Origin: Limisphaerales bacterium
Lineage (GTDB): Bacteria; Verrucomicrobiota; Verrucomicrobiia; Limisphaerales; UBA1100
Assembly: GCA_014382585.1 (NCBI GenBank)
Contig: JACNJL010000026.1
Location: 62,001 to 126,000 of the forward strand
Direction of reading: 5' to 3'
DNA: 64,000 bases
A program made the translations under genes and the position numbers. Positions 20,079 to 36,961 of this stretch are shown piece by piece. The notes below the pieces were generated by a model. The model did not search any database. It was not told the DNA's origin and saw only the letters and a list, made by a program, of their open reading frames with translations. Positions within the stretch are counted from its first letter, which is position 1. Every line of letters begins with the position of its first letter.

Positions 20079-20081
20079 TCG

Positions 20082-21548
20082 ATGCGCGCGGTCGGCCTTA
20101 TTCTGTTGTTGGCGCTGACGGCCGATCTGCCCGCGGCTGATCTTGCGGCCCTGCGCAAACAGGCTGCCGCCGGCGACGCCAAGGCTCAATATCAATTGGG
20201 CGAAATCTTACATGAAGCCCGGGTCGTGGCGCGCGATTTGGATGCCGCCCGCCGATGGACCACTCAAGCCGCCGATCAAGGTCATGCCCGGGCGCAGTAT
20301 CGGTTGGCTTCCATGCGACTGCTCGGCGAAGGTGGCACGCGCGATGCGCAGGCGGGGATGGCCCTTTTCAAAAAATGTTTACCCGCACTCACCCAAGAAG
20401 CTCAGGCCGGACAGGCCGATGCGCAAGGGAAGCTCGGCATTCTTTTTGCCCGCGGCGTGGGTGTGGAACAGGATGCCGACGCCGCGGCACAATGGTTTTT
20501 CAAAGCCGCGAAGCAGGGCAACATCAAGGCTCAGGCTGATTTGGCCAGTGCCTATCTCACCGGACAGGGAGTCGAGGCCAATCCCACCAAGGCGGGCGAA
20601 TGGTTTACCCGTGCCGCGCAGAAGGGATTTGGGCCGGCCATGATTCATCTTGCCGCGTTGGAATTACAGGGCCGCGGTCGGCGGCAAAATTTGAAGGTCG
20701 GCAAACAATGGCTAATGAAAGCCACCGCCGTGAAGCACCCCGGCGATGCCGAACGCGCGCGCACGTTGCTGGAGCGCTTGGCCAATCAGGCGCCGCGTCT
20801 GTTGCCCGATATGGATACCCTTCATGCCCGCGCCGACCAGGGCGGGATTGAGGCTCAAATTGAATTAGCCCGTCGCTACGAAACCGGTTCGGGTCTTCCG
20901 GTTGATTCCGCTCAAACGGTGAAGTGGTATCTTCGCGCCATCCGGTTGGGCTCGGCGGAGGCCGCGCATCGGCTGGGCGGCATGTTCGCGTTGGGGCGCG
21001 GGGTGAAAAAGGATCCTGCGCGGGCCGCACGGTTTTGGAATCTCTCCGCCCGTCTGGGCTATGCCGCCGCACAGATTGACTGGGGCGTGATGTGTGCAAA
21101 AGGCGAAGGCTCGCCGCGCAATCCGGCTCAAGCTTACTACTGGTTTATCGTTGCCCGTCGGCACGTGGACGATCCCAAGCAAATTGAAACCCTCGCCCAA
21201 CTGCAAACCCTCGCTTCCACCGAACTGACGCCGGACGAAGTGTTCGACATCCCGCAAGACGCAGCAAACTTCCTGGCGCCCAAAGCACTGACCCTGCGTA
21301 AGGCGATGGCGATGGCGGAGTACGGCGATGGTGCGGCGCAGTTTAAACTGGGTCAGGCATTGGCCGAAGGCACCGGATTGGAAAAAAATGTGGCGGAGGC
21401 CTTCGTCTGGTTTTCATTGGCCGCAAAACAAAAAGTAAACGCTGCCGGCAAGGCGCGGGATGCGCTGAAACTTTCGGAAAAAGAAAAGGCGATTGCGGAG
21501 AAAAAAATAAAATCCTTTAAGCCACTGCCCCCCCCGAAGGCGAACTAG
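20082..21548 (+). CDS. Secreted Sel1-repeat protein, 488 aa
   Basis: Short signal peptide (AVGLILLLALTADLPAAD) followed by about ten Sel1-like repeats (GDAKAQYQLGEILHEA, GVEANPTKAGEWFTRAAQKG, GRGVKKDPARAARFWNLSARLG, GTGLEKNVAEAFVWFSLAAKQ). It is clearly a paralogue of the gene before it, sharing the exported N terminus and the final DA/K-rich tail, so a tandem duplication is likely. Predicted periplasmic scaffold. It is convergent with the kinase gene; the stops are about 8 bases apart. Confidence 0.88.
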   Translation: MRAVGLILLLALTADLPAADLAALRKQAAAGDAKAQYQLGEILHEARVVARDLDAARRWTTQAADQGHARAQYRLASMRLLGEGGTRDAQAGMALFKKCLPALTQEAQAGQADAQGKLGILFARGVGVEQDADAAAQWFFKAAKQGNIKAQADLASAYLTGQGVEANPTKAGEWFTRAAQKGFGPAMIHLAALELQGRGRRQNLKVGKQWLMKATAVKHPGDAERARTLLERLANQAPRLLPDMDTLHARADQGGIEAQIELARRYETGSGLPVDSAQTVKWYLRAIRLGSAEAAHRLGGMFALGRGVKKDPARAARFWNLSARLGYAAAQIDWGVMCAKGEGSPRNPAQAYYWFIVARRHVDDPKQIETLAQLQTLASTELTPDEVFDIPQDAANFLAPKALTLRKAMAMAEYGDGAAQFKLGQALAEGTGLEKNVAEAFVWFSLAAKQKVNAAGKARDALKLSEKEKAIAEKKIKSFKPLPPPKAN

Positions 21549-21555
21549 CGGTGGA

Positions 21556-24006
21556 CTAGCGCTTCGTGGCCAGTCGGCGAGTACGGAAGAATTGTTCCAC
21601 GGTTTCCATCTTCGATGCGTCCGCGTCAAAATGATACGAAAGGCGTTTGAGCCTGGGCAGGTTGCGCAGGAAATCAATCTCCCCGTGCTCGCGCGGCAGT
21701 ACCAACACCTCCAGATTGGTGCACTGAGAAAGCACTGTGAGGTCGCGCAGTTGTTCGCAGCCATCGAGGCGCAGTTCCCTGATTGGCAATCCGGCCAGCG
21801 GCTTGAGGTCCGTCACCGGCGTGCGGTCTAAATGCAGTGTGCGCAGCGGCATGTCTTTGAGTGGTGCGAGTGAGTTTACTTGCGTGCCGCTGAGGTGCAG
21901 GTACACCAGCGGCGTACCCGTCAGCGGATTCAAATCATCCACTGGTGCGAAGGCGATGGTGAGCGATTGCAGCGGCAACCCCGCGAGTGGGGTGAGGTCG
22001 TCCACTGCCGTGTAGGCGAGGTACAGCTCATGCAGCGGCATCCCTTTCACCGGACGGAGATCGTTCACGCGCGTACGCCACAGGTTAAGCGAGCTGATTG
22101 GCAGTCCCGCAAACGGCTTGAGGTCACGGGTTTGGGTGCCGGAAAGATTGATCCTCAAATATCCAAACGCATCCCGCTGCAAACGTCCGGAAAGGCCGAT
22201 CTGTTTCATTGCGGCGACCCCGCGTTGCCAGACGGCAAGCTTCTCGCGTTCCATCAACGCAGCCGTGTGGCGGGCATCGGGGCCGAGGCGTTGATGGGTT
22301 TGCCATTGGTGCACACGGCTCATCGCGTGCAGGGGCAGGGCGCCCTTGTTGAATTGATTGAAATCACGAATCAACTCCTGGCTGAGCTTTAGCGCACGCG
22401 CACCGAAAGGATGCGGCTCGTTCATCGATTTTAATACCGCCGCGGCCTCGGCCGGTTGCATGAGGGCGAGGTGTACGCGGGCGAGGCGATGGGTGTGGGC
22501 GGGTTGGGGGTCCAACTCGTGCGCCAATCGGGCGGTGGCCAGTGCGCCGGGGAAGTTGCCCTGCGCGATAAGGTCGCCCGCTTGCTTGTGGCAAATCGGT
22601 GCGGTGCGCTGGAGGCGGGCGGCATCTTCGCTGCGATGATGTTGATGGCGTAAATGTTGCCAACCCACCGCGACCCCGAGCAGCACGATGATGCTGGCGG
22701 CAGCGGCAAGCGGCCCGTTGCGGCGGATGGACAGGCGGAATTGGCGCAATCGCCCGGCGTGTTCGGCGCTGGGAGCGTAGCCCGATTGCCATGCGGCCAC
22801 GTCGCGTTGCAGGGCTTCTACGGCGGGGTAACGCTTTGCGGCATCGCGTTGCAGCGCCTCCATTGCCACGGCGGCCAATGCTTCGGGCACGCTGCGCTCG
22901 GGGCAGTGGACGAGTACGGCGGCGTTAGGTTGGTCGGCGAGTTTGGTGAGGGGAGTGATTTGGCCAGCCTTGACTTTTTCCAACACCTCGGGCCCGCCGC
23001 TGGTGAAGGGCGGGCGCAGGGCAAGGATGTGGTATAGGATTGCGCCAAGCGAATAGATGTCGGTGCGTTGGTTGATCGCTTCGAGCCGGCCTTCGGCTTG
23101 CTCGGGGGCCATGAAGCCCGGGGTGCCCATGACGGTTCCATAGCGGGTGCCTTCGTTTTCGCCGGAAGGCGGCATGGGCTCTTCGGCCTGGTTGATAATC
23201 TTGGCAAGGCCCCAGTCCATCACGAAGACTTCGCCGTACTCGCCGAGCATAATGTTGGCGGGCTTGAGGTCGCGATGGATGATGCCTTTGGCGTGAGCGT
23301 AGGCAACGGCATCACAAATTTTTTGGTAAATCCGCAGCAGCTGATGGAGGGGATAACGGTCGACCACATTGGATTGCCCTTGGCGCAAGCCGTTGAGCAC
23401 GTCTTTGAGGGTGGTGCCGCGGACGTATTTCATCGCGTAATAGTTTTGGCCGGCGGCGTCCACGCCGAGGTCGTGGATGGGGACGATGTGCGGATGGTCA
23501 AGCCGCCCAAGGACAAGCGCTTCCTGGGTGAAGCGCCGCGCGAGGCTGGCGGAGGCAGCGACCTCGGGGGTCATTAGTTTAAGCGCCACGTGGCGTTGGA
23601 GTTGGCGGTCGTGCGCAAGATGGATTTCGCCCATACCGCCCTTGGCGAGATGGCGGACCCGTTCGTAGCGATGGGGCAGGGCGGCGGGGGGCGTGTCGGC
23701 GGCAGGGATTGCGTGAAGGGTGACGACAATTTTGCCGATGGAAAAGGATTGGCCGGGCTGGATGGTAACGGGGCCGGCGATTTGGCGGCCATCGATGAGC
23801 GTGCCGAATTTTCCGCCGGTGTCTTCGAGCAGGCAGCGGTCGGGGGTTATAGTGAGATTGGCGTGTTGGCGGGAAACCTCCGGGCTGTCGAGCGTAATGG
23901 GGCACGCGGGATCGCGGCCGATTGGGAATTCGCCCGGGACGAGGTCATACGAGACCAGCAACTGACCGCCCTTATGGGCTACCAGTTTAATAATGGCAGT
24001 TGGCAC
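21556..24006 (-). CDS. FHA - Ser/Thr protein kinase - leucine-rich-repeat fusion protein
   Basis: 816 residues from GTG 24006, chosen for its strong ribosome binding site. Domains in order: FHA (residues about 8-95, IGRDPACP...SRQHANL), a PASTA-less Hanks kinase (about 113-400; glycine loop LAKGGMGEI, Lys143, HRDLKPAN, DWG at 264-266 in place of DFG, APE), one membrane helix (432-449), a helical TPR-like stretch, then about seven leucine-rich repeats of 23 residues (D.KPLAGLP...L.L..T.V). The FHA and kinase are cytoplasmic and the LRR should be outside. The DWG motif is common in planctomycete/verrucomicrobial kinases. Likely an envelope sensor; ligand unknown. Confidence 0.92.
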   Translation of the reverse strand: MPTAIIKLVAHKGGQLLVSYDLVPGEFPIGRDPACPITLDSPEVSRQHANLTITPDRCLLEDTGGKFGTLIDGRQIAGPVTIQPGQSFSIGKIVVTLHAIPAADTPPAALPHRYERVRHLAKGGMGEIHLAHDRQLQRHVALKLMTPEVAASASLARRFTQEALVLGRLDHPHIVPIHDLGVDAAGQNYYAMKYVRGTTLKDVLNGLRQGQSNVVDRYPLHQLLRIYQKICDAVAYAHAKGIIHRDLKPANIMLGEYGEVFVMDWGLAKIINQAEEPMPPSGENEGTRYGTVMGTPGFMAPEQAEGRLEAINQRTDIYSLGAILYHILALRPPFTSGGPEVLEKVKAGQITPLTKLADQPNAAVLVHCPERSVPEALAAVAMEALQRDAAKRYPAVEALQRDVAAWQSGYAPSAEHAGRLRQFRLSIRRNGPLAAAASIIVLLGVAVGWQHLRHQHHRSEDAARLQRTAPICHKQAGDLIAQGNFPGALATARLAHELDPQPAHTHRLARVHLALMQPAEAAAVLKSMNEPHPFGARALKLSQELIRDFNQFNKGALPLHAMSRVHQWQTHQRLGPDARHTAALMEREKLAVWQRGVAAMKQIGLSGRLQRDAFGYLRINLSGTQTRDLKPFAGLPISSLNLWRTRVNDLRPVKGMPLHELYLAYTAVDDLTPLAGLPLQSLTIAFAPVDDLNPLTGTPLVYLHLSGTQVNSLAPLKDMPLRTLHLDRTPVTDLKPLAGLPIRELRLDGCEQLRDLTVLSQCTNLEVLVLPREHGEIDFLRNLPRLKRLSYHFDADASKMETVEQFFRTRRLATKR

Positions 24007-24009
24007 AGT

Positions 24010-24017
24010 TCCTCCTT
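24010..24017 (-). promoter_or_regulatory. Shine-Dalgarno deciding the GTG start of the kinase gene
   Basis: On the - strand, GGAGGAACT precedes GTG 24006. It supports the GTG over the ATG 57 bases upstream. Confidence 0.75.
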
Positions 24018-24091
24018 GCCGCCACACCGTGACGGGAGTGCAGGCTGCCTGAAAAACGGCCAAAAATCAAGCCGCAAGACAGGGGGACGGC

Positions 24092-25945
24092 GTGGTTGGG
24101 CTTGCAATCAGGCTTGGTTTTCCTATGATGCGCGCCCGTTTATCCCGACTTATGCGGCAGATACCATTAATTGCATTTAATGCCTTCATGGAGTTGATAC
24201 GGCAGCCTGTCTTTTTGCTGTTGTTTACCCTATCCGTGATTGTGTGTTTGTTGCTGGCGGCGACTCCGTATTTTGGTTTTGGCGGAACGGGCATTGACGT
24301 TGTTAATTTCGATGTAAAAATGGTGAAGGACGGCGCGCTGACGGTGATGCTGATTTCGGGTCTGTTCGCTGCGGTCATTTGTGCGTCGACTTCATTGGCG
24401 AAGGAAATTTCCTCGGGCACAGCCATGGTGGTGCTTTCCAAGCCGGTGGGCCGCATGCATTTTGTGGTGGGCAAATTTCTTGGCGTGGCCGGCGCGCTGA
24501 CCGTGGGCACTTATCTGAATCTCCTCGCCGTATTGCTGGCCAGCCGCATGGGCTATGATGCCTACGGGAATCCGGATATTGTCGGGGTACTCACCATTCT
24601 CGGTTTCATGGCGTTGGCTTATGTTGCTGCGGGCTTTTTGAATTATTTTTTACGCAAACCCTTTGTGCCCACCTGCGTGACGTTATTGGTGGTGTTGCTC
24701 ACCCTTGGGTTTCTCACCGTGTGTGCGATGGATAAACAACGGGCTTGGTGGGTGGTGGATTCCGGCGAGGATATGAACGCGGGATTTATGGACATTTGGG
24801 TATTCACAGACGCAGCCGGCACCGATTCCCGCGGGGAAGCGTTGGGTGCAGAAGAGAAAGACGAGTTTGCCGCCGGTGTGGATTGGGGTATAATTCAGCT
24901 CAGCCTGCTCATCCTCTTTGCCTTGTGGTTACTCTCGGCGCTTGCGTTGTTATGTTCTACTCGACTTTCGTGGCTACCAACGATGTCCATCTGTTCAGGG
25001 GTATTTTTAGTGGGGCTGATGTCTGATTATTTATTGGGCCGCACGGCGGAAGGCGGGGGAATGATCCATTCCGGCGAATATGTAATTTGGAATCCACCAG
25101 GAAATCAGGCCGGCACGCATTCAGTGTTCAGGCTCAAGCCGCGCGGGATCCGGCGATTGGCGGGTATGGAATTCCTTGTGAAAATGAATGTAAATGGTCC
25201 CGCCACACCCAAAGACAAGCAGCTGGTCGATGGGGTGTTGACGCTGGATGTGACCACGGATGACGGCCAGATTAAGATCGAGTACGAAGAGCTCAAGACG
25301 AAGTTGGATGGGGTGCTGAAACTCCGTTGGAACGAGCCGCTGGAGCGCAAAATGATTCAAATTGGCCGGTTATTGTTGCCCGGAGAATTCCCCGGAAATT
25401 CGATGGAACTCAAACTGGCCGGTGAAATTCGCGAGGAAATCAACAACCGAAGCGCCGAATTAGAGCAAGATGAGGCGAAAAAAGACCTGCTGATTGAGTT
25501 TCGCATTCTGGATGATCAGGTGACGACTGAAGTGGTGCCCGGCCATTTAGCCCTGTGGATTATGCCTGAACACGGCACCCTCACCAAACTGGATGCCTCG
25601 GTGGATGAGGAAGTGACCGTGGCTCGGGGTGCTGTATGGGCGAAAATCCTTTACGTTTTAGTGCCAAACTGGCAGCTTTTTTGGCTCTCAGATTCTGTGG
25701 GCGTGGAAGCTGAAGAGTTATCCAGCCGCCGCGATTTGGAAGCGGCCAAGGTTGAGGCCGGCAAAACTGGCGATCGGGTGGACATGACCCAGAACGTAAA
25801 AGTTCAGAAACGGGCAGACATTAGTTACCGCGAAGGTCAGGTGCCTTGGAAGTACATTTTAACCTCACTAATATATGTGGTGGTTTATGTTGGCGTGATG
25901 CTTTCGGGTGCGCTGATGTTGTTTGAGAATCGAGAATTAGCCTGA
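24092..25945 (+). CDS. ABC-2-type permease with large extracytoplasmic domain (first gene of SPFH/P-ATPase/ABC cluster)
   Basis: Up to 617 residues. GTG 24092 has AGGGGG just upstream, but ATGs at 24125, 24128 and 24152 are possible and the last gives the usual permease N terminus (MRQIPLIAFNAFMELIRQP). About six helices lie in the first 290 residues, including the ABC-2 hallmark LAKEISSGTAMVVLSKPVGR. A roughly 250-residue soluble, probably exported domain follows, and a final helix lies near the C terminus (WKYILTSLIYVVVYVGVML). It is one half of a probable heterodimeric transporter with the permease at 33393; the ATPase is at 32170. The gap to the next gene is 1 base. Substrate unknown. Confidence 0.85.
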   Translation: MVGLAIRLGFPMMRARLSRLMRQIPLIAFNAFMELIRQPVFLLLFTLSVIVCLLLAATPYFGFGGTGIDVVNFDVKMVKDGALTVMLISGLFAAVICASTSLAKEISSGTAMVVLSKPVGRMHFVVGKFLGVAGALTVGTYLNLLAVLLASRMGYDAYGNPDIVGVLTILGFMALAYVAAGFLNYFLRKPFVPTCVTLLVVLLTLGFLTVCAMDKQRAWWVVDSGEDMNAGFMDIWVFTDAAGTDSRGEALGAEEKDEFAAGVDWGIIQLSLLILFALWLLSALALLCSTRLSWLPTMSICSGVFLVGLMSDYLLGRTAEGGGMIHSGEYVIWNPPGNQAGTHSVFRLKPRGIRRLAGMEFLVKMNVNGPATPKDKQLVDGVLTLDVTTDDGQIKIEYEELKTKLDGVLKLRWNEPLERKMIQIGRLLLPGEFPGNSMELKLAGEIREEINNRSAELEQDEAKKDLLIEFRILDDQVTTEVVPGHLALWIMPEHGTLTKLDASVDEEVTVARGAVWAKILYVLVPNWQLFWLSDSVGVEAEELSSRRDLEAAKVEAGKTGDRVDMTQNVKVQKRADISYREGQVPWKYILTSLIYVVVYVGVMLSGALMLFENRELA

Positions 25946-25946
25946 C

Positions 25947-27959
25947 ATGGAAAAAATCAACAAAACCGGCGGACTGTGGAATGTGGCCATCAGCATTGGA
26001 GCGGCGGCGCTCGCGGGCATTGTGGCTTGGAAAACCAATTCCACCACGGCGCTCGCGGTTTCCTTTTTTCTGGGGCTGTGTTTGCTGGTGAGTTTGGTGG
26101 GGCTGTTGCACATGGATCTCACGGACCGCGAGGGAATGGAGACGCTGGAAATGGACGCCATCAAAGCCGGTCGAGGCGGCGATGCGTTGTTTGAGCAGGG
26201 CGAAGTGTTACCCGCCAAGCGGTCACGCGAACAATTTGAGCGATGGTTTGTGCCGGTCATCTCTGTGGTGATGTTGGGGTTGCAGCTTGGGGGGGCGTAC
26301 TACCTCGGTTTCCACAAAATTTCCGGAATCTTGGAGGGGATGAAAACAGATGCCACGCCGATTCTGGTGGAATCGCGTTATTTAGGTTTGGCAGGAGCGG
26401 CATTATTAGCGGTGATCCTCTTCATGCGCGGACAATTTGCCTCAAACCTGGCGCGCCTGCAGCGTGATCGGCTGTTACAACCGGCATCCGATTTTATCCT
26501 GTTTTCAGCCTACCTGCTCATTGCGTTGGCGGCGGTATTGGCGGTGAGTTTCAAGGAGCAACGGGTGGATCTTTGGGTGGGAATTGTGATGACCTGCCTG
26601 TTGGTTGGCATAGCGCTGGAGAATTTGCTGAGCATGATCTTCGAGGTTTACCGCCCGCGCGTGTCCGGGCGGCAGGGGCGATTGCTGTATCGGAGCCGTT
26701 TAATCGGGTTGATTGCCAAACCGGAAAACCTCTTCACCACCGCGGGCAAAGTGCTCGACTATCAGTTTGGCTTCAAAGTTTCAGAAACCTGGGGCTACCA
26801 GTTTTTGCGTGAACGGTTGGGCGTGCTGATCGGGATTCAAATTATTATATTTTGGCTGTCCACCAGCGTGGTCACCATCGGGCCATCCGAGCGTGGGCGT
26901 TTGCAAAACCTGATGTCCGGCAACCAAACCTCGCAGTGGCTGGGTTCGGGGATCCATTTTAAATTGCCCTGGCCATTTGCCGAAGTAGAGCGGTTTCACC
27001 CCAATCAGGTTCACAGTTTTTATGTCGGCTTGGAGGCAGATGACGATCCGGATGTGGTGAAACGGGCGCGTATTTGGCTCAAGCCCAGCGGGAAAAATTA
27101 CGACAGCGAGCTGAACGGAAATCAAAACGGCGTGGGCAAAGGGAAAATTTATTTCCCCACCGGCAGCGGAAAAGCAGGCGTATCGGAAAATCTCATCGTC
27201 CCCAGCATTCCGGTTCACTATCGGATTTATGGGTCCTCAGAGACTGATCGCAAAGGATTGGAAGATGGTTGGCTCCGGTATTCCGATCCGGAAGCGGTGA
27301 TCAAGGAATTGGCGCACCGTGTGGTGTCGCGCTATTTCATCAGCAAAGATATGAAAACTCTGATGCGCACCGGCCGCAATCAGGCGATGGATGACGTTAA
27401 AAAAGAATTGCAGATGTTGACTGATGCCCGCGGGCTTGGCGTGGAAATCCTGTACGTGGGCATGGCCGATTTGCGACCGCCGGCCGAATCCCCCATCCAA
27501 ATGGCGGGCATGAAAGAAGACAAAAGCGCGGGTCCGAATAAGAAAGAAACCATGAGTCCGACTCCCGTGGCTGCAGTATTTGAACGGGCCATCATGGCGA
27601 ACATCACACAGGAAACCGGCAAGGCACTCGCTCGTAATGCCGCGCGCCGGGAAGAATCCATGCAAACCAATGAGGTGCAGACGATCATCAATACCGCCAT
27701 TAGCGATGCCACCGTGAAACTGAAAGTGGCCCAGTCTCGATTGGAATTAAGTCGGCAACAAAATGAACCCTTCCGGCGCGCACCGCGGTTGTTTTCTCTT
27801 TGGCTATACACCCGCTCAGTGAAACGTTCACTGGTTGACACCCGGAAATATATTGTGGCCGTAAAAAATGCGGACATATCAGCCGACATCGATCTTAAGG
27901 AGCTCACACGGCGCGGCATGCTGGATGTGAAAGTGCCGCCCGCCGGAGACAAAAAATAA
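25947..27959 (+). CDS. SPFH/band-7 protein fused to a polytopic membrane domain (HflK-like)
   Basis: 670 residues. The first about 320 hold six or seven membrane helices, unlike HflK/HflC, which have one. The last helix (LGVLIGIQIIIFWLST) leads into an SPFH domain beginning TIGPSERGRLQNLM and LGSGIHFKLPWPFAEVERF, the classical band-7 opening. A long helical tail (about 530-610) follows. There is a roughly 40-residue insert in the SPFH core (GKNYDSELNGNQNG). No protease or NfeD partner is nearby. Position between an ABC permease and two single-helix SPFH genes suggests all three assemble together. Function unknown. Confidence 0.85.
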   Translation: MEKINKTGGLWNVAISIGAAALAGIVAWKTNSTTALAVSFFLGLCLLVSLVGLLHMDLTDREGMETLEMDAIKAGRGGDALFEQGEVLPAKRSREQFERWFVPVISVVMLGLQLGGAYYLGFHKISGILEGMKTDATPILVESRYLGLAGAALLAVILFMRGQFASNLARLQRDRLLQPASDFILFSAYLLIALAAVLAVSFKEQRVDLWVGIVMTCLLVGIALENLLSMIFEVYRPRVSGRQGRLLYRSRLIGLIAKPENLFTTAGKVLDYQFGFKVSETWGYQFLRERLGVLIGIQIIIFWLSTSVVTIGPSERGRLQNLMSGNQTSQWLGSGIHFKLPWPFAEVERFHPNQVHSFYVGLEADDDPDVVKRARIWLKPSGKNYDSELNGNQNGVGKGKIYFPTGSGKAGVSENLIVPSIPVHYRIYGSSETDRKGLEDGWLRYSDPEAVIKELAHRVVSRYFISKDMKTLMRTGRNQAMDDVKKELQMLTDARGLGVEILYVGMADLRPPAESPIQMAGMKEDKSAGPNKKETMSPTPVAAVFERAIMANITQETGKALARNAARREESMQTNEVQTIINTAISDATVKLKVAQSRLELSRQQNEPFRRAPRLFSLWLYTRSVKRSLVDTRKYIVAVKNADISADIDLKELTRRGMLDVKVPPAGDKK

Positions 27960-27974
27960 CCCAGGAATTACACT

Positions 27975-28949
27975 ATGAAAAAAACCGTAAACATAATCAT
28001 CTTTGCGTTGCTGCTGCTGATCTTCGGCTCGTACATATTCACCTTTCAAGTGCGACAGGATCAGGTGGTGTTCGTGGAAACCTTTGGCAAACGTGCCGAT
28101 GCCATACAGGAACCCGGCCTGAGATTTCGTTGGCCCTGGCCCATTCAGGAGGTTTACACCTTTGACCGCCGCATCCATTTGCTCACCACCCAATACGGCC
28201 AAATCAGTACCGGCGACAGCAGCCTAGTGGTGCAGCCCTACCTCGGTTGGCGCATTCAGGATAACCCCAAGACCTTCATTGAAAAAGCGAAAGGCAGTTC
28301 CGCTGCCGCCCGCCGCGCTTCTGCCGAAGCCTATTTGCGACAGGCCCTCGAAGGAGCGGTGACCTCGGTGTTTGGTGACAAAGAAAACCTAATCGTCACC
28401 ACCGAATCACTTCATGAAGGAGAACGGGCAGCACAAGGGAAGCAACACACCTTCGGGAAATTGGAAGCGGCAATTCTGAGCAACGTGAAACCCAAGGCCG
28501 AAGCATTTGGAATTGAGCTACGGTTTGTGGGCATTCGCCGGGTTGGGATCACTGAACACAGTGTTCAAGTGACGTTAAATTCCATGGTTACTCAATGGGA
28601 CGATGAGGCCGCCACGAACATGAAAAAGGCTCAAGACGAAGCCCAGCGAATTCGAACGGAAGCCGCGAACAAACGAACGAGCGCGCTCAAAGAGGCCCGG
28701 GCAAAAGCCGACATCATCGCAGCCAATGCAAGCGCTGATGAAGCAAAGATTTTTTCTGAATTGGAAGAAAAAGATGCGGATTTAGCCGCCTTTCTCATCG
28801 AGCTCAATGCAATGGAATCGGTTTTGAAAAAGGAAACCACTCTCTTCCTCGATGAGAATTTCCCATTCCTGCAACCGTTGCGCGGGAATTTTTTGATGAA
28901 GGAAACCAAGCTCCCCGATAATACGCAGACTGAGTCTGCCCCTGAATGA
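27975..28949 (+). CDS. SPFH/band-7 protein (HflC-like)
   Basis: 324 residues. A single N-terminal membrane helix (NIIIFALLLLIFGSYIF), then the SPFH domain (VRQDQVVFVETFGKR, EPGLRFRWPWPIQEVYTFDRR), then a C-terminal helical stretch rich in Ala, Glu and Lys (about residues 215-285) as in HflC and other stomatin-like proteins. Membrane-anchored with the SPFH domain outside or inside depending on topology; HflC is periplasmic. Its stop overlaps the next SPFH gene by 4 bases (ATGA), so the two are likely made in equal amounts, as HflK and HflC are. Confidence 0.92.
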   Translation: MKKTVNIIIFALLLLIFGSYIFTFQVRQDQVVFVETFGKRADAIQEPGLRFRWPWPIQEVYTFDRRIHLLTTQYGQISTGDSSLVVQPYLGWRIQDNPKTFIEKAKGSSAAARRASAEAYLRQALEGAVTSVFGDKENLIVTTESLHEGERAAQGKQHTFGKLEAAILSNVKPKAEAFGIELRFVGIRRVGITEHSVQVTLNSMVTQWDDEAATNMKKAQDEAQRIRTEAANKRTSALKEARAKADIIAANASADEAKIFSELEEKDADLAAFLIELNAMESVLKKETTLFLDENFPFLQPLRGNFLMKETKLPDNTQTESAPE

Positions 28950-30142
28950 TGAGCGATTCGGACGAAAAAAACAAAGATTTGGTCGACCACGACTTGGGGC
29001 ATGAAGCCGGGTCGCGGGCGATGGATCAGGCGCTGCAAAGCAGCTTCACCATCCTGAAGCTAGTGATTGCGGTGCTGGTGGTTTATCTGATTTTTTCCAA
29101 TACCTCCACGGTGGAAGGAAAGAAAGAAGGCGTAATCATCCTGCGCTTTGGTAAAGCGCGTGAAGCCTCCTCCAAAGATGTGTTCGAATCGGGGATCCGA
29201 TTTGCCCTACCTTATCCGTTGGAGGAACGGGTGGCCATCGAACGGGAACGTCCGATCACCACAAAGTTTTTCAAATACTCACCGGTGGGCCGCATTGAGA
29301 TCGGTGATGATTTGGATAACCATCCGTTGAACGCTGAAAAAGATGGCTACGTGTTAACCCGCGATGGACGGATTCTGCATTTGGAGGCCACCTTGAATTT
29401 TGAAATCGAAGATCCAAAAGCATTTGCCTTTAATTTTGCCCAGCCCGAGAAAGTGTTAACCACCGCGTTCGAAAGTGCCATCACCCATGCGGCCTTTGAA
29501 GTGAGAATGGAAGAGCTTCAGTCCCAGCTTCAGCTTTTCACTGAAGACGTGAAGAACCGGACGAAGGAACTGGCCAAGCAATACGGATTAGGGGTGAAAA
29601 TCAACGGAGTTTACATTCGACAGGCGGATGTGGAGTTGCCGTTTATGATTCGGACCGCATATAAAGGGATGAACAGTTCCCTGAAAAATGCAGGTGATAT
29701 TATTCAACAGGAAAAAAACAAAGCCCGCCAAACGGTTGATGCCATTATGGGCGACGAAAACAGCACCAACCCCACCGGTGAAGTGGCCGTCGTTCTGAGC
29801 AAAGCCAAGGGGCAGGCCGTCAGCACCATGCGGGAAGCGGAGGCATTGCGTCAGCGGTTTTACAGTATTTACGGCGGGGAAGAAGAAGGCGCCCCGGTGC
29901 GCTCGATCGAGGAGCGGAGGCACGGGATGCACCGGCTTTATTTTGAAGTATTCGACCGGCTCATGACGGAGTCGGATCTGAAAATTTATGTGATTTCTAA
30001 TCGCAGCGGGCCCCGGCAAAAAGTGCATCTACTCATTAACCCCAAACCGCCCGAGCCGAAGAAATCACCTTACGATAATTTAAGTGGACAACAGGGGCCT
30101 CCCGGAGGTGGACCGCCACCCACGCCGCCGGCCGGCCAATAA
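28946..30142 (+). CDS. SPFH/band-7 protein (HflK-like) with proline-rich tail
   Basis: 398 residues. A charged N terminus, one membrane helix (ILKLVIAVLVVYLIFSN), then an SPFH domain (KKEGVIILRFGKA, GIRFALPYPLEERVAIERER) followed by a helical coiled-coil-like part (QQEKNKARQTVDAIM). The last about 30 residues are rich in Pro/Gly (KPPEPKKSPY...GPPGGGPPPTPP). This is the HflK-type partner of the gene before it, started by an ATGA overlap. The family forms oligomeric cages on the membrane; no FtsH gene is adjacent. Gap of 18 bases to the P-type ATPase. Confidence 0.92.
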   Translation: MMSDSDEKNKDLVDHDLGHEAGSRAMDQALQSSFTILKLVIAVLVVYLIFSNTSTVEGKKEGVIILRFGKAREASSKDVFESGIRFALPYPLEERVAIERERPITTKFFKYSPVGRIEIGDDLDNHPLNAEKDGYVLTRDGRILHLEATLNFEIEDPKAFAFNFAQPEKVLTTAFESAITHAAFEVRMEELQSQLQLFTEDVKNRTKELAKQYGLGVKINGVYIRQADVELPFMIRTAYKGMNSSLKNAGDIIQQEKNKARQTVDAIMGDENSTNPTGEVAVVLSKAKGQAVSTMREAEALRQRFYSIYGGEEEGAPVRSIEERRHGMHRLYFEVFDRLMTESDLKIYVISNRSGPRQKVHLLINPKPPEPKKSPYDNLSGQQGPPGGGPPPTPPAGQ

Positions 30143-30160: not shown

Positions 30161-32155
30161 ATGCAGGACACCGAACAACTTGAAACGGCGGAGAACGCCA
30201 AAGTCAAACAGGCCGCCACCACGGTGAAATATATTTTCGTCGGCATCCTGTTCGTCATCAATGGCTTTATTGCTGATTGGTTTCTCGGATCGGAATCCAG
30301 CGTGGGTGACCTGAGCGCCATGATCGGTGCGTTCATTCTTGGCATTCGCATCTTTCGCACCACCATACATGATTTGCGGCAAGGACTGCTCACCACCAAT
30401 GAGCTGGTGGCCATCGCGGTGTTGGCAACGTTTTCATCGGGCGAATATCACGCCGCCGGGCTCGTGGCATTTTTCATGTTGCTCGGTGAAATGATTGAGA
30501 GCCGAACCGCTTCCGGGGCCAAGGAAGCTATTCGCCGATTGATGAAGCTGACGCCCACCCGAGCCATTCGGATCGTGGATGGCGTTGAGGAAGAAGTGGC
30601 GGCGGTGGACCTCGCCGTGGGCGATCGCATCCGCGTGCGGCCGGGCGACAATGTGCCTGCGGATGGTGAGATTCTTCTGGGCACCGGATCGATCAATCAA
30701 GCCAACATCACCGGTGAATCGCTGCCGGTGGATAAGCAACCCGGCGACAATGTTTTTCAGGGCACGATCAATCTGGACGGGATGTTGGAAGTCAACGTCA
30801 CCAAAGTCGGGGAGCAAACGGAATTTGGCCGGGTGCGCGAATTGATTTTACAGGCGGCGCAATCCAAGACGCAGCTGATGAAAATTGTGGATCAGTACAT
30901 GGGATTTTACACGCCGTTGGTGTTGGTCATTGGCGCGTTGGTTTGGGCCTTCACGCAGGATTTGAACCGCGTGATCTCTGTGTTCATTGTGTCCAGCCCC
31001 GTGGCTTTTATCCTCGCCACTCCCACTGCGATGGTGGCTGCGGTGGCCACTGCGTCGCGTTTGGGGATTCTCATCAAGCAGGTGAGTGATATTGAATTAG
31101 CTGCGAAGATCAACGCGTTTGTATTTGATAAAACCGGCACCATCACCACAGGCACCCTGACGGTGAGTCGTTTGGCTCCGGTGGAAGGGGTAACCCGCGC
31201 CGAGTTGTTACTGGCAACCGCGACGGCGGAACAATACAGCAATCACCCCACCGCAAAAGCGATTGGGAAACTGGCAGCGGAAGCGGGGTTGAAGCTCTCT
31301 GATCCAAAAGATTTTAAGGAAATCGCCGGTAAAGGCGTGCAGGCCACAGTGGACGGTGCCAAGATTTTGGTGGGCCGGGAAATGTGGCTCAACGAAATTG
31401 GCGTGACCGGTGATCTCACCGGCTCGGTAGATATTGATGAAGCCGCCGGATACAGTTTGGTGTTTGTTAGTCGCAACGGGGAATTCATCGGCTGGGTGGG
31501 GATGACCGATGAGATCCGCACTGAGGCGGCCGAGTCGCTGTCGGAATTGCGGCATGAAGGTGTGCGCCGCCTTGCGATTGTCTCCGGTGACCGTACGCCG
31601 GTGGCCGAGCGTGTGGCCGCCGAGGTGGGCTGCGAAGAGGTGCGCGCGGAATGTTTGCCCGGCCAAAAAGTGGAATACGTTCAGGATATCCGATCCAAGG
31701 GTTACAAGGTTGCCTTCGTGGGTGATGGCGTGAACGATGCCCCCGCGCTCAAGGCAGGCGATATCGGCATCGCTATGGGCGCAGCTGGCAGTGATGTGGC
31801 CATTCAAAGTGCCACCATCGCGCTGATGAATAATGATCTGCGGCGTCTTCCCTTTTTAGTGCATCTCTCCCGGATGACACGCAGCGTGATTAACCAGAAT
31901 TTTATTTTTGGAATTCTGTTTGTCATCATCGGGCTGGTTCTGGCCACGTTGAGTTACATCACTCCGGTGAAGGCAGCCATGTTGAATGTGGCCGGCTCGT
32001 TGATCGTGGTATTCAATAGTGCCCGACTGGTTCGTGAAGGTGAGGAATTTGATCCGTTTGAAGAAGGGCGCGAGTCCGAGCCCGAGGCTAAGGATTCAGA
32101 ACCGGCCGAGATCGAAATTGGGGCAGAGCCCAAATTGGCAGTGGAGACGGACTAA
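30161..32155 (+). CDS. P1B-like heavy-metal P-type ATPase with SPV in place of CPC
   Basis: 664 residues. Actuator motif TGES (184-187), phosphorylated Asp323 in DKTGTIT, HP motif (H362-P363) typical of P1B pumps and GDGVND (521-526) are all intact, so ATP-driven transport is credible. The helix-6 metal motif, CPC or similar in family members, is S279-P280-V281 (VSSPVAFILATPTA). Only two cysteines occur in the whole protein, both in the cytoplasmic domain. There is no N-terminal HMA or His-rich domain, and the C-terminal helix has NVAGS where other P1B pumps have a metal-ligand motif. The substrate is therefore unclear. Within the SPFH/ABC cluster. Confidence 0.88.
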   Translation: MQDTEQLETAENAKVKQAATTVKYIFVGILFVINGFIADWFLGSESSVGDLSAMIGAFILGIRIFRTTIHDLRQGLLTTNELVAIAVLATFSSGEYHAAGLVAFFMLLGEMIESRTASGAKEAIRRLMKLTPTRAIRIVDGVEEEVAAVDLAVGDRIRVRPGDNVPADGEILLGTGSINQANITGESLPVDKQPGDNVFQGTINLDGMLEVNVTKVGEQTEFGRVRELILQAAQSKTQLMKIVDQYMGFYTPLVLVIGALVWAFTQDLNRVISVFIVSSPVAFILATPTAMVAAVATASRLGILIKQVSDIELAAKINAFVFDKTGTITTGTLTVSRLAPVEGVTRAELLLATATAEQYSNHPTAKAIGKLAAEAGLKLSDPKDFKEIAGKGVQATVDGAKILVGREMWLNEIGVTGDLTGSVDIDEAAGYSLVFVSRNGEFIGWVGMTDEIRTEAAESLSELRHEGVRRLAIVSGDRTPVAERVAAEVGCEEVRAECLPGQKVEYVQDIRSKGYKVAFVGDGVNDAPALKAGDIGIAMGAAGSDVAIQSATIALMNNDLRRLPFLVHLSRMTRSVINQNFIFGILFVIIGLVLATLSYITPVKAAMLNVAGSLIVVFNSARLVREGEEFDPFEEGRESEPEAKDSEPAEIEIGAEPKLAVETD

Positions 32156-32169
32156 TTTGATTCCCGCTT

Positions 32170-33369
32170 ATGGTTGAAACACAAACACAAGATACATCGC
32201 GCGAAACCGAAGGCGGGGCGATCGTACGGGTTGACAATTTGGTCAAAGTATTTCGCGATTTCTGGGGACGGCCCAAAGCGCGCGCGGTAAATGGGGTGAA
32301 CTTCGAGGTGCGCACCGGCGAGGTTTTCGGCTTGCTGGGCCCTAATGGCTCGGGGAAATCCACCACCATCAAAATGATGCTCGGCCTGCTCAATCCGACC
32401 AAGGGATTCATCGACATTTTTGGCCAAAGCCCGCGTGATGTGAAAACGAAAGAACGGATCGGGTATCTGCCGGAGGAATCGTATCTTTACAAGTATTTGA
32501 ATTCAACTGAGACGCTGGATTTTTTTGGCGGTTTGTTTGCGCTGGATTCCAAAGAGAAAAAAATCCGATCAGAACAATTGTTGGACATGGTGGGACTCAC
32601 CGCCACGCAAATGCGGACAGTGGGTGAGTTTTCCAAAGGTATGCAGCGCCGGATCGGGTTGGCTCAAGCGTTGATCAACGATCCTGATCTGGTGATTCTC
32701 GATGAACCCACCAGTGGTTTGGATCCGGTGGGTTGCCGGGAAATTAAGGATCTCATTCTCAACCTCAAAGCGCGGGGGAAGACGGTTATCCTGTCCAGTC
32801 ATCTGCTCGCTGACGTGGAGGATGTGTGCGATCGCGCAGTGATTTATTATGGCGGCAAAATTCAACAGTACGGAACGCTGGAGGAATTGCTGACCGAACG
32901 CGACACCATTCGCTTCACGCTTCCTGCGTTGTCCGAGAAAGCCCAGCAGGAAGTCATGAACGTCCTTGGTAAACACGTGGCCAAAGATCAGGTGCGCGTG
33001 GAAAACCCGACTCAAAACCTGGAAAGCTTTTTCCTGAACGTGGTGGAAAATGCTATCGCGAAGGACGAGGGGACCTCCGGCTCCACGGCGGGTAATGAGG
33101 TGGCTGAATTTTTGCGGGCGGATGATCCGTTGCCCACGCAGGCAGACAAGATGCTTGAGCGGCTTGCCGAAAAGGAATCCGCCAAAACCGTCCCCACCCC
33201 GGCTGAGCCCGTGCCGGAGAAGCCAAAAGTGGACACCGCTAAACTTGATTCCCTCTCCGGTGACGAGACTAAGAAAGAGCTCGTCAAACGGGATTCAGGA
33301 AAAACTAAACAATCACAATCCCTCGACGAGGCCGATGACAAACTCTCCGGTCTGCTCGGCGGCGATTGA
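32170..33369 (+). CDS. ABC transporter ATP-binding protein (ABC-2 type) with long C-terminal tail
   Basis: 399 residues. Walker A GPNGSGKST (around 57), signature FSKGMQRR (around 154), Walker B LVILDEPTSGLD and the H-loop SSHLL are complete. The nucleotide-binding domain ends near residue 250; the rest is a charged tail (KSAKTVPTPAEPVPEKPK..., many Lys/Asp), much longer than usual and probably unstructured. It should power the two ABC-2 permeases encoded before and after the SPFH/P-ATPase genes. Gap of 14 bases to the ATPase and 23 to the next permease. Confidence 0.93.
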   Translation: MVETQTQDTSRETEGGAIVRVDNLVKVFRDFWGRPKARAVNGVNFEVRTGEVFGLLGPNGSGKSTTIKMMLGLLNPTKGFIDIFGQSPRDVKTKERIGYLPEESYLYKYLNSTETLDFFGGLFALDSKEKKIRSEQLLDMVGLTATQMRTVGEFSKGMQRRIGLAQALINDPDLVILDEPTSGLDPVGCREIKDLILNLKARGKTVILSSHLLADVEDVCDRAVIYYGGKIQQYGTLEELLTERDTIRFTLPALSEKAQQEVMNVLGKHVAKDQVRVENPTQNLESFFLNVVENAIAKDEGTSGSTAGNEVAEFLRADDPLPTQADKMLERLAEKESAKTVPTPAEPVPEKPKVDTAKLDSLSGDETKKELVKRDSGKTKQSQSLDEADDKLSGLLGGD

Positions 33370-33392
33370 TTCAACCTCGCCGACTTTGCACG

Positions 33393-35300
33393 ATGGACTT
33401 CAACCCCATTGAACACAGTTATTTAATGAGTTGGACCCGCGTTGCGTTGAGTGGCATGTTGCTGCTTGTCATCTGCGGCGGTATCGTGTGGGGTATTTTA
33501 GATTGTCGCGTTCGACACGTTGCCATGCTTACGTGGAAAACGGCGGTTCGCCTTCGTTTTATTTGGGTGATGATCATTCTTCTGTTGCTCGCTGTGGGCG
33601 GGCTGCCGGCTGTTTTGCGAGATGACGGCTCGGCCAAGGGCATGGCGCAAATCATCCTCACCTACACCCTGAGCATGACCACCGGCATTTTGGGGCTCTC
33701 CACGTTGTGGCTGGCGGTGGGCAGTATGGCGTCGGATATTGGCGGATGCCAAATGCAGATGATAGTCACCAAACCCATCGCTCGCTGGCAAATCTGGCTG
33801 GGCAAATGGCTGGGCATCATGGGCCTAAACCTCGTCCTGTTAGGTTTGGCGGGAACGGTGGTGTACGCGATGGTGGAATACCGCGCGCGTGTGCTGACCA
33901 GTTCCCAATACGAACGGCTCAAAGATCGGACTGATGATGAAATTAAACAGGATGTCACCAAGGCATTGAGGGAAAACCGGGTTCGGGTTGAAGAGGTGTT
34001 TGTGCTTCAGGAAGAGAAACGCCAATTAAAGTTGGACGACAATCAAAGACCGATATTTCAGCCGATGGGTGCGCTTAAGCAATTGTTGGCGGGTTTGCCG
34101 GAGCGTGAACTGCGAACGCAAGTGCTGGTCGCCCGGGCTCCGCTGGAATTGGTGGATGTAAAAATAATGGAGCGGAGCGGGAACAGTATGAATTCCAGTT
34201 CGTATAAAGACTGGAGGAAACTGCAGCGGGAAAATGATGAGCGAGTGGAATTAGCCAAAGCCCTAATGGAGGTTCAGGCGATGGCCCGGGCCGAGCAGGA
34301 TCGCCGGGCAAATAAGGGGGGCGCTTTCGAGAATGTGGAGATTCCCCAGTCGCTGCCCTTTGATATTCAGCGGCAAATTCAAGACAGGGTGCGCATGGGA
34401 TACCTGATCAGCTCACAAGTGATGCGGCCGGAAACCGCAAGGCAGTTTATCTTCCAAAAACCAAGGGGAGGGTTTGACGAAGACAGCGGGTTGGTTCTGA
34501 GATTTCAACTGTTGGATACTCGTATGAATTTCAAAGGGGATCGTCAATATCGTACCGTAGTGGGGTATGGGCCTTCAATCGATCAACCCGGCATTGAAAT
34601 TGTGGGAAGCTATATTGCGCGAACCCAAATCGAGGAGGCGATGCTGGCCAAGGGATTTCGCCTTGGAGAAAATGGTGAACGCGAAGAGGTCAGCGTTTTT
34701 GGTGAGGATGGTAAATTGTATGTGAATGTGATGAATGCGGAAATTCCGCAACCGGAACAGGAATATATGGCCGCGCTGAAACTGCCATTTCTGAATGAAA
34801 CCACCGGCGAGCTGGATCCTCGCGGCGTGGAGGTGATGTATTATGAGGGCGGATTTTTCAAAAATTACCTGCGCGCATTGGCTGTGGTATTTGCCTGGCT
34901 GGGTGCGTTGGCCGCGCTGGGGCTCATGGCCGCAAGCTTTATGTCCCTCCCTATGGCGGTGTTTGCCTGCACAGGAATCCTGCTCATTTCCTTTTGCACC
35001 GGATTGCTGAAAGACGTGGTGAAAGATGATACCATTATGCAGACCTATACCGACGGAGTGCACGACACTTCTGTGGTGGATATTTTTGCAATCAATTCAT
35101 TTAAGGTGATGGTGGCAGTGATCTCACCAGTAAAGGATTACTCACCGATTGGAGATCTCACCGAAGGCCGGGCCATCACTTGGGGGCAACTGGGCCGGGC
35201 CTATAGTTATATTTGGGGCGTAACGGGCCTCTTGATTTCCGGGCTCGGGATGCTAATCTTAACCCGCCGCCAACTGGCCATTACCGATACTACCGAATGA
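33393..35300 (+). CDS. ABC-2-type permease with large soluble domain (second permease)
   Basis: 635 residues from ATG 33393; a TTG nine codons upstream, overlapping the ATPase stop, is an alternative. Helices lie near 25-45, 55-75, 90-115 and 150-170, with the ABC-2-like motif IGGCQMQMIVTKPIARWQIWLGKWLG. A roughly 350-residue charged domain follows, then three or four C-terminal helices. The overall plan mirrors the permease at 24092, suggesting an ancient duplication and a heterodimer. It ends in an ATGA overlap with the next gene. Confidence 0.85.
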   Translation: MDFNPIEHSYLMSWTRVALSGMLLLVICGGIVWGILDCRVRHVAMLTWKTAVRLRFIWVMIILLLLAVGGLPAVLRDDGSAKGMAQIILTYTLSMTTGILGLSTLWLAVGSMASDIGGCQMQMIVTKPIARWQIWLGKWLGIMGLNLVLLGLAGTVVYAMVEYRARVLTSSQYERLKDRTDDEIKQDVTKALRENRVRVEEVFVLQEEKRQLKLDDNQRPIFQPMGALKQLLAGLPERELRTQVLVARAPLELVDVKIMERSGNSMNSSSYKDWRKLQRENDERVELAKALMEVQAMARAEQDRRANKGGAFENVEIPQSLPFDIQRQIQDRVRMGYLISSQVMRPETARQFIFQKPRGGFDEDSGLVLRFQLLDTRMNFKGDRQYRTVVGYGPSIDQPGIEIVGSYIARTQIEEAMLAKGFRLGENGEREEVSVFGEDGKLYVNVMNAEIPQPEQEYMAALKLPFLNETTGELDPRGVEVMYYEGGFFKNYLRALAVVFAWLGALAALGLMAASFMSLPMAVFACTGILLISFCTGLLKDVVKDDTIMQTYTDGVHDTSVVDIFAINSFKVMVAVISPVKDYSPIGDLTEGRAITWGQLGRAYSYIWGVTGLLISGLGMLILTRRQLAITDTTE

Positions 35301-36961
35301 CCGCACGCCGCGCCAATACCGTTGATAGCCTGCCCAAGCCCGCCTTGGCCGGGCTCATCGTGTTGTTGTTGGCATTGACGTTTGTTGTTCAAGGCCGGCT
35401 GAACGAGCAACGGGCCGAGCTGAGTCATAACTATCTCGAACCCTTGCAGAATGCCCCGCCCTTGCTGGTGCTTGCCACTCAGGCGTTGAGCGGGTTTCGC
35501 GGAATCATCTCCTCCTACCTTTGGCTGCGCGCAAACGAAGCCCAGCTGGAAAAACGGTATCAGGAACAAATGCAACTTTCCCAATGGGTCTCCCAACTTC
35601 AGCCCAATGTCCCCACGGTGTGGGCCAATCGTTCCTGGAACATGGCTTACAATATCTCGGTGAAACATCCCGATGGCGAAACCCGCTGGATATACGTGCA
35701 GGAGGGCATTCGGTTATTACGCGATGAAGGCATCCGTTACTGTCCGCAGGAGCCAATCATCTACCACGAGTTGGCCTGGATTTTCCAACACAAGGTTGGG
35801 CATAACATGGATGACCACCATCGTTTATATAAACGGCAATGGATGAACAACATGACCGCGGTACTGTGGGCCACACCCGAGGATGCCCGCAATTCCAATG
35901 GCGTCCCCAACTTTGATGAGCTAATCGACCCGCCCAATGACGAAGTGGCTGCGCGCGTGAAAGTGTTGCGCAAAAAATATCGGCTGGATCCGCGCGAAAT
36001 CAAAGCGGTGGCCATTAAGTACGGCAGATCCAAGCTTCCCAACGGCAAGATCGTGAACGCCTTGGACTGGCGGATTCCTGAAACACATTCCATTTACTGG
36101 GCTCACCTCGGCCTCAAACGCTGTTCGCATAATCCATCCCGCGAGAAGGCGTTACGAAAGCTCGAGCGCATCATTTATCAATCGATGATGTATGCCTTCG
36201 AGCGCGGCAAGTTGAACTGGAACCCAATTGACAATCAGTACGAATTTCAGAATGTCACCGGCCCTGGAGGTTCCACCCGGAATATGATGAACATCAGCGC
36301 CAGTTGGAGCACTATTCCCAATTTGGACATCACCACAAAAGCTCATGAGGCTTATCAGGAGATGATCAAGCAGGCGCAGGAGACGCGCGGTGAGGATATT
36401 TCCAGCACCTTCGGAACGGCGCATTTTAATTTTTTGCGCCGCGCCGCCAACTGGTTCTACTACTACAACCGCGAAGAAGAAGCCCGCTATTGGCTGACAG
36501 TTTGCGCCAAGCTTTATCCGGGCAAAGTCCGGTTCTACCCCGGTTTTGATTTTGAGAATGACACGATAAACATGGATGAGTTTATCCGTTACAAGCTGGA
36601 GGAAGACGTGAAGCGAGGCAACTTCGACAAAACACAGGCCCTCTTCACCGGCTTACTGATTCGCCACTTTACCTTGCTGGGTGAAGGCGATGCGGAAGAG
36701 GCTGACTCCGCCTTGGGAATGGCCAAAGAAGTGGTGGACCGCTATAATGCGCGATTTGCTAATGCCAAAGGCGGTCGAGTCTCCTTGCCTCCGTTTGAAG
36801 TCATTCGGATTCTACGGATGCGCGCCTTTCTCCTGGAAGAAAGTAAAGTGCGCGCAGCCATGCTGCGGACTGCCGTTGGGTTAGCCGAAGGCGAAATGCC
36901 CGAGGTGCCCACACCTCCGCCATCGCCGGGCCCCCAACCCCAACCCGGTCCCGGCCAGTAA
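35297..36961 (+). CDS. Membrane-anchored helical (TPR-like) protein of unknown function
   Basis: 554 residues from ATG 35297, which overlaps the preceding stop (ATGA). One membrane helix (LAGLIVLLLALTFVVQG) near the N terminus, then a long helical, TPR-like region (ANRSWNMAYNISV, EPIIYHELAWIFQHK, HWAHLGLKRC-like), and a Pro-rich tail ending PQPQPGPGQ. I do not recognise a named family. It closes the SPFH/P-ATPase/ABC cluster and is translationally coupled to the second permease, so it is probably an envelope partner of that complex. The Pro-rich end resembles the tail of the third SPFH protein. Confidence 0.75.
   Translation: MTARRANTVDSLPKPALAGLIVLLLALTFVVQGRLNEQRAELSHNYLEPLQNAPPLLVLATQALSGFRGIISSYLWLRANEAQLEKRYQEQMQLSQWVSQLQPNVPTVWANRSWNMAYNISVKHPDGETRWIYVQEGIRLLRDEGIRYCPQEPIIYHELAWIFQHKVGHNMDDHHRLYKRQWMNNMTAVLWATPEDARNSNGVPNFDELIDPPNDEVAARVKVLRKKYRLDPREIKAVAIKYGRSKLPNGKIVNALDWRIPETHSIYWAHLGLKRCSHNPSREKALRKLERIIYQSMMYAFERGKLNWNPIDNQYEFQNVTGPGGSTRNMMNISASWSTIPNLDITTKAHEAYQEMIKQAQETRGEDISSTFGTAHFNFLRRAANWFYYYNREEEARYWLTVCAKLYPGKVRFYPGFDFENDTINMDEFIRYKLEEDVKRGNFDKTQALFTGLLIRHFTLLGEGDAEEADSALGMAKEVVDRYNARFANAKGGRVSLPPFEVIRILRMRAFLLEESKVRAAMLRTAVGLAEGEMPEVPTPPPSPGPQPQPGPGQ

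Follow-up and report, generated by a model that had tools for sequence, protein, structure and literature searches.

What is a polytopic membrane domain doing at the front of an SPFH protein? Rings of SPFH proteins are regarded as scaffolds or enclosures of membrane machines, the SPFH protein HflK has a single anchor helix, and to our knowledge few clients of such rings are well established beyond FtsH. In a 64,000-nucleotide stretch from a Limisphaerales bacterium (GCA_014382585.1, contig JACNJL010000026.1, positions 62,001 to 126,000; hereafter the window), one gene encodes a 670-residue protein in which six hydrophobic helices and a seventh precede the SPFH domain. A sequence-only reading of the window had proposed that this protein may join SPFH cages to neighboring permeases. 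We find that the fusion is real and conserved, that its membrane domain is predicted to have the fold of a cation diffusion facilitator (CDF) zinc transporter with its metal site gone, and that a P1B-type ATPase is its near-constant neighbor, the two having lost metal ligands together in the lineage of the window. These three features lead us to read the protein as the dock of a cage around the pump.

A polytopic membrane domain fused to an SPFH domain

The open reading frame (ORF) starts with ATG and has no internal stop (Table 1). Its hydrophobic segments comprise six at the N terminus and one just upstream of the SPFH domain. An AlphaFold2 (AF2) model, built from 101 aligned sequences (mean predicted local distance difference test [pLDDT] 82.4, predicted template modeling score [pTM] 0.64), places helices at residues 2-30, 33-75, 89-133, 144-172, 178-200, 206-235, and 282-305, followed by the SPFH fold; the stretch between helices 6 and 7 is a loop with two short helices. 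The sequence-only reading had described six to seven helices over about 320 residues. The polytopic stretch stands, and the helix positions refine it to six plus one helices and a membrane part of about 305 residues. By the lysine and arginine counts of the loops, the N terminus and the loop of residues 230-288 face inward and the SPFH domain faces outward; lysine and arginine are commoner in the presumed inner loops in 101/101 rows (density, 0.156 versus 0.092). The longest invariant stretch of the protein, DYQFGF, falls in the cytoplasmic loop. A wider alignment has Glu225, in helix 6, in every one of its 107 rows, and this is the only charged residue that is more than 60% conserved within the assigned helix spans.

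The SPFH domain of the window copy is divergent; it scores 19.9 bits with Band_7, under the cut-off of 23.6, and matches TIGR01933 (hflK) at E 1.4e-9, under the equivalog cut-off. Two scanned Verrucomicrobiota relatives exceed the Band_7 cut-off (E 3.7e-19 and 1.3e-10; 69.9 and 42.0 bits). The top Foldseek match of the full model is HflK/C (9cz2, E 5e-11), and VIA-align against 7vhq_E gave a Z of 14.5 with an overall root mean square deviation (rmsd) of 18.2, the long helices being placed differently. As in the HflK branch, the SPFH fold is followed by a long helix; the single N-terminal anchor of that branch is replaced by seven helices, and we therefore do not class the protein as an ordinary HflK.

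Full-length relatives in other assemblies (loci L031 and L034) are 86% and 83% identical to the fusion protein, and matches at an E of at most 1e-5 occur in 153/387 genomes of the phylum, some of them partial; the survey covered Verrucomicrobiota genomes and plasmid records. This distribution rules out an assembly join, so that confinement to one genome, which the sequence-only reading had named as a reason to give up the fusion, does not apply. The fusion is real and conserved and is neither chance nor a join. The literature search, which left most subscription papers outside its coverage, found no report of a CDF-SPFH fusion, and the part of Hinderhofer 2009 covered here (PMC2636767) shows no polytopic SPFH subfamily.

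Predicted CDF fold of the membrane domain

The predicted fold of residues 1 to 240 resembles the membrane part of CDF zinc transporters, a likeness that is new here. For this part of the full model, VIA-align returned YiiP (8f6k_B) at Z 19.9, with an rmsd of 2.5 over 200 residues, and also ZnT3 (17.4), ZnT1 (17.2), SLC30A10 (15.7), ZnT7, and ZnT8; a family missing from a VIA-align list is not thereby excluded. In a second fold test, the N-terminal domain of the ortholog L028, which is 21% identical to the window protein there, was folded alone (pLDDT 89.7). Ranks 1 to 24 were all CDF, the best with Z 16.7 and an rmsd of 3.3 over 204 residues, and the first non-CDF fold was EspB (Z 9.0). A profile of 101 N-terminal domains, compared with 39 CDF ORFs drawn from 42 loci, gave a match of 90.5% (E 1.4e-6 for a single comparison) that was colinear across the six helices, while six other families reached at most 1.3% and the reversed profile reached 0.4%.

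The metal site itself is absent. At the five aligned positions of CDF site A (transmembrane helices 2 and 5), Asp, Glu, His, or Cys occurs in 0, 1, 3, 2, and 2 of 101 rows; the ligands are so nearly absent that the zinc site is gone family-wide. CDF proteins carry a cytoplasmic ferredoxin-like C-terminal domain, whereas the model has a loop, the seventh helix, and the SPFH domain past helix 6. The sequence-only reading had stated that a match of the first 320 residues to a known unrelated transporter family would speak against it, and the outcome is mixed: 240 of these residues have a predicted CDF fold, but the metal site is dead and the setting is that of a metal pump.

Several results weigh against this fold assignment, which depends on predicted structures. 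Foldseek placed the best CDF row for the full model (YiiP 8f6h_B) at rank 28 (E 7.6e-4), and its E for the L028 domain alone was weak (0.028); the lowest CDF rows for that domain (Z 9.3) are nearly tied with the unrelated EspB. PF01545 matches 7/101 N-terminal domains (best E 2.3e-4), and unrelated families match too, one at 8.5e-6. An earlier profile comparison with two CDF sequences, from too narrow a motif choice, gave 0.6%; six N-terminal domains from plasmid relatives (see below) gave 0.7% and no match when compared with CDF directly; and a search of PDB profiles with the N-domain alignment returned no CDF, the top row being VPH2 (E 0.001). Pfam and NCBIfam scans of the membrane domain found nothing above cut-off. 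Weak matches to SMR_qac, CbtB, XK-related, and Claudin were treated as noise.

A conserved module with a P1B pump

The fusion gene belongs to a run of genes on the same strand, from an ABC-2-type permease to a last conserved protein (Table 1). It lies 1 bp after the upstream permease and 15 bp before the HflC-like gene; overlaps of 4 bp join the HflC-like gene to the HflK-like gene and the ABC ATPase gene to the permease gene that follows it, and the true start of the last gene, judged by eye, is probably the ATG at 35297, which overlaps the permease stop. The two ordinary SPFH genes that had been noted beside the fusion gene are thus present, as HflC-like and HflK-like genes. Neighbors were counted at 80 named-contig loci and 20 phylum-wide loci, using only loci with enough flank. 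At the named-contig loci, the HflC-like gene (71/71), the HflK-like gene (68/68), and the P1B pump (59/59) follow the fusion gene without exception, together with the ABC ATPase (47/52), the second permease (47/51), and the last protein (44/47), and the upstream permease is found in 55/56. The phylum-wide loci have the HflC-like gene in 20/20, the HflK-like gene in 19/19, the pump in 18/19, the ABC ATPase in 12/17, the second permease in 3/5, and the upstream permease in 5/17, although L129 and L130 have a permease-like ORF upstream that this last count did not score. The module of CDF-SPFH, HflC-like, HflK-like, and P1B ATPase genes is near-invariant. The one locus that speaks against a fixed pump partner is L128, which has no P1B pump.

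Plasmids of Paraburkholderia, Rhizobium, Burkholderia, and Klebsiella carry these four genes too, in unchanged order. A tblastn search of plasmids matched 9 records, or 10 with the Paraburkholderia relative as query; of six inspected, four are annotated with the module, as HflK, HflC/SPFH, SPFH, and a cation or heavy-metal P-type ATPase, and two carry no annotation. The Paraburkholderia module adjoins zinc ABC uptake genes. Full-length identity is 18 to 19%. The six plasmid N-terminal domains gave a 97.2% match (E 3.9e-11) to the Verrucomicrobiota profile, and Glu225, Trp377, His381, and His510 are kept in 4/4 relatives checked. The Klebsiella protein, read from its annotated start, has one hydrophobic segment fewer. 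The pump reads Cys-Pro-Cys (CPC) in all four plasmid modules read (L131-L134).

The window pump contains TGES, DKTGT, HP, and GDGVND, which we take to be the P-type catalytic motifs. Its metal-site helix lacks the CPX/XPC motif, described as essential for transport (PMC8456098; this and the other cited papers were covered in part), and reads Ser-Pro-Val (SPV) instead. This change is accompanied by others (Table 1). Fusion residues His381 and His510 are both absent in 9/9 rows with an SPV or CPV pump (7 SPV, 2 CPV), which form two clades separated by the pump tree, and lost alongside in these clades are His609 of the pump and, in the HflK-like protein, His85, which 86% of CPC rows have. Among columns at least 85% conserved in CPC rows of the four core proteins, those lost in both clades comprise 4/7 His or Cys columns, the CPC cysteines excluded, and 10/413 others (Fisher p 2.6e-5); because neither columns nor rows are independent, this p serves as a guide. 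About 36 loci without a readable pump entered that test through their SPFH columns only. Three loci without a readable pump lack both histidines (listed tallies: T/R twice, S/R once, N/R once). Among further pump loci, nine from the same genus or family have SPV (L185-L191, L204, L206) and three from that family have CPC (L192-L194).

The motif figures in Table 1 come from a column-based count of 77 pumps, from which 18 short loci among L002-L030 that repeat longer ones were dropped, as were rows that contain X or fall outside set lengths, and hence L034 and L037; both are included in the motif-reading count behind the 9/9, which itself missed some CPC rows. In the pump tree, the module pumps of both phyla form a group to which seven further P1B pumps found in relatives do not belong, and since long branches meet in it, we used it only for the separateness of the SPV clade and of L129/L130.

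The genes of the window clade are under purifying selection and are not decaying. Between the window and L031, the nonsynonymous (dN) and synonymous (dS) divergences are 0.058 and 0.92 for the pump, a dN/dS of about 0.06, and 0.091 and 1.0 for the CDF-SPFH gene. Against a coupling of pump and fusion ligands stand L044 and L051, which lost both histidines and kept CPC; L119, with a VPA pump and both histidines kept; and L065 and L088, which lost His609 and kept both histidines. Two clades are also few for a claim of joint loss, and the window copy is itself one of those without the ligands.

Table 1. Features of the fusion gene, the P1B pump, and the surrounding run (window positions; residue and codon numbers are those of the encoded protein)
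Feature	Positions	Strand	Remarks
CDF-fold/SPFH fusion gene	25947..27959	+	670 aa; ORF, AF2, fold comparison
Membrane domain, residues 1-240	25947..26666	+	Six helices; predicted CDF (YiiP/ZnT) transmembrane fold; site A residues absent
Conserved loop after helix 6, residues 233-282	26643..26792	+	YRPR...YxSR...LDYQFGFKVSETW; predicted cytoplasmic
Seventh helix, residues 282-305	26790..26861	+	Located where HflK has its single anchor
SPFH domain, residues 308-514	26868..27488	+	Predicted periplasmic
Fusion codon 381 = Ser	27087..27089	+	His in 97% of 67 CPC-pump rows
Fusion codon 510 = Arg	27474..27476	+	His in 97% of 67 CPC-pump rows
C-terminal long helices, residues 541-629	27567..27833	+	AF2 model
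P1B-type ATPase	30161..32155	+	664 aa; TIGR01525 E 1.6e-159
Pump residues 279-281 = Ser-Pro-Val	30995..31003	+	Cys-Pro-Cys in 67/77 aligned pumps, window counted
Pump residue 609 = Asn	31985..31987	+	His in 99% of CPC pumps
ABC-2-type permease, first gene of run	24092..25945	+	PF12679 E 1.5e-8; start putative
HflC-like SPFH gene	27975..28949	+	324 aa; scores under equivalog cut-off
HflK-like SPFH gene	28946..30142	+	398 aa; scores under equivalog cut-off
ABC ATPase	32170..33369	+	Best NCBIfam DrrA, GldA, both under cut-off
Permease-like protein	33366..35300	+	Hydrophobic ends, large soluble middle; GldF E 1.3e-4, under cut-off
Conserved last protein of run	35213..36961	+	One hydrophobic segment; Pfam scan without match

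Upstream of the run, a divergent gene (21556-24063, minus strand) is separated from the start of the operon by about 28 bp; by eye, its product resembles an FHA/Ser-Thr kinase/leucine-rich-repeat protein. A gene of this kinase-like type holds the same place in the relatives L031-L034 and L036-L039, and at L128 the three SPFH genes are followed, in the pump's stead, by a gene 28% identical to the window's kinase-like gene. The translations of two adjoining genes at 17736-21548 are Sel1-type repeat-like by eye. Elsewhere in the window's own genome, no CDF transporter was found at an E of at most 1e-10, and the one match to the window P1B ATPase at an E of at most 1e-20 is the pump itself; this genome may therefore lack the usual metal exporters.

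A candidate pump cage and its known counterparts

On balance, we consider it probable that the three SPFH proteins form a cage around the P1B pump, docked by the dead CDF domain. The fusion protein would supply a third SPFH subunit, the polytopic one, to a module that has the ATPase as its fixed partner, and the protein's cytoplasmic loop and seventh helix would link the dead CDF domain to a periplasmic HflK-type SPFH domain. Together the three SPFH proteins would build a periplasmic hetero-cage, much as HflK/HflC do around FtsH, and the CDF domain would sit in the membrane inside the ring or at its rim, where it could hold the ATPase. The metal moved by the pump may be handled by His381 and His510, both predicted to be periplasmic; zinc or copper handling was most likely the ancestral task, as in the Pseudomonas hmtA cluster. 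What we infer from these features is the cage, its enclosure of the pump, which metal is moved, and in which direction. In the lineage of the window, the pump ligands and the histidines have gone together while the machine was kept, so that this lineage probably changed its substrate or became regulatory. We hold a more specific version tentatively and think it rather doubtful: a cage dedicated to the pump, with a dead docking domain and a histidine relay, in which the window pump cannot move soft metals and has either taken a new substrate or turned into an ATP-driven regulator.

The main rival is that the three SPFH proteins make up an HflK/HflC complex that modulates FtsH and that the pump is an incidental neighbor. 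The two partner proteins are indeed HflC- and HflK-like, though under the equivalog cut-offs, and the window's own genome has one FtsH gene and three other SPFH proteins that miss the HflK/HflC cut-offs as well. The FtsH gene, however, sits on a different contig from the module, the pump is adjacent at all but one of the loci with enough flank and on four annotated plasmids, and in P. aeruginosa HflK and HflC have a locus of their own (PMC13086221). We judge this rival unlikely.

Two further accounts are, in our estimate, a little less credible still. In one, the CDF resemblance is a chance likeness of six-helix bundles, and the domain serves as a general membrane anchor with no link to metal. 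The scattered Pfam support and the weak Foldseek E for the domain alone fit this account, and common arrangement can lift helical bundles to a Z of 13 to 14; against it, the best Z is 19.9 for the full model and 16.7 for the L028 domain, ranks 1 to 24 of the latter are all CDF, the profile match is colinear with clean controls, including the reversed profile, and the neighbor is a metal pump. The other account, that of the sequence-only reading, has the polytopic domain link the SPFH cage to the ABC permeases instead of the P1B pump. The permeases and the ABC ATPase are frequent at the named-contig loci, but the four annotated plasmid modules in Pseudomonadota list no such ABC genes, the upstream permease was scored in few phylum-wide loci, and the steadiest non-SPFH partner is the pump, so that the proposed hub has to be corrected and the interpretation it belonged to is partly supported as a whole. 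An actively transporting CDF-type N-terminal domain that works beside the pump is highly improbable, since, for all its predicted fold and the lack of a CDF gene in its own genome at the threshold above, the ligand positions are almost empty across the family and Glu225 is the sole well-conserved charge inside the helix spans.

That the fusion almost always stands beside a metal pump suggests that ring scaffolds can be built around such a pump and evolve with it. The fused transporter-fold domain gives a physical reason, and the near-invariant linkage and joint ligand loss a genetic one, to expect a P1B pump as an SPFH client. On the more specific version above, relay and pump metal site would have been removed together in the window lineage, leaving a conserved, cage-bound P1B ATPase. 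This lineage offers a natural experiment in which the same machine is selected for without its metal ligands.

The closest published layout is the hmtA cluster of Pseudomonas aeruginosa, in which PA2439 comes first and is followed by PA2438, PA2437, and the P1B ATPase PA2435 (PMC4542158, PMC8531726); the window likewise has three SPFH genes and then a P1B ATPase. PA2434-PA2439 comprise the HflK-, HflC-, and HflC-family genes PA2439, PA2438, and PA2437 with HmtA, and the cluster is up in a znuA mutant (PMC4542158). Reviews describe HmtA as an importer of zinc and copper (PMC8456098, PMC10393844), and HmtA, PA2438, and PA2439 are raised under zinc depletion in proteomics (PMC11761036). Zur binds the PA2439 promoter in vitro; against zinc control, hmtA mRNA did not drop after zinc addition (PMC8531726), and a review excludes hmtA from Zur binding (PMC10393844), so that zinc control of hmtA is disputed. 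The covered parts of PMC4542158 and PMC8531726 give PA2439 no polytopic or CDF-like description and leave PA2436 and PA2434 uncharacterized. A further caution is that the likeness is one of published gene layout, plasmid relatives having stood in for the P. aeruginosa sequences. PA2437-2439 are presumably the proteins named PaFlo5-7. PA14 without PaFlo5-7 forms about 20% less biofilm and is attenuated in an insect model, growth having been compared in rich media (PMC13086221). A docked cage would offer a reason for an importer such as HmtA to cluster with three SPFH genes.

Compared with the E. coli HflK/HflC cage around FtsH, the window fusion protein shares the SPFH fold and the long C-terminal helix; it differs in having six extra helices and a P1B pump, not FtsH, as gene neighbor. 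With the CDF transporters of the YiiP/ZnT type (PF01545), its N-terminal domain has in common the predicted membrane fold and a colinear profile, but it is without the site A ligands, and a loop, a seventh helix, and an SPFH domain trail its helix 6.

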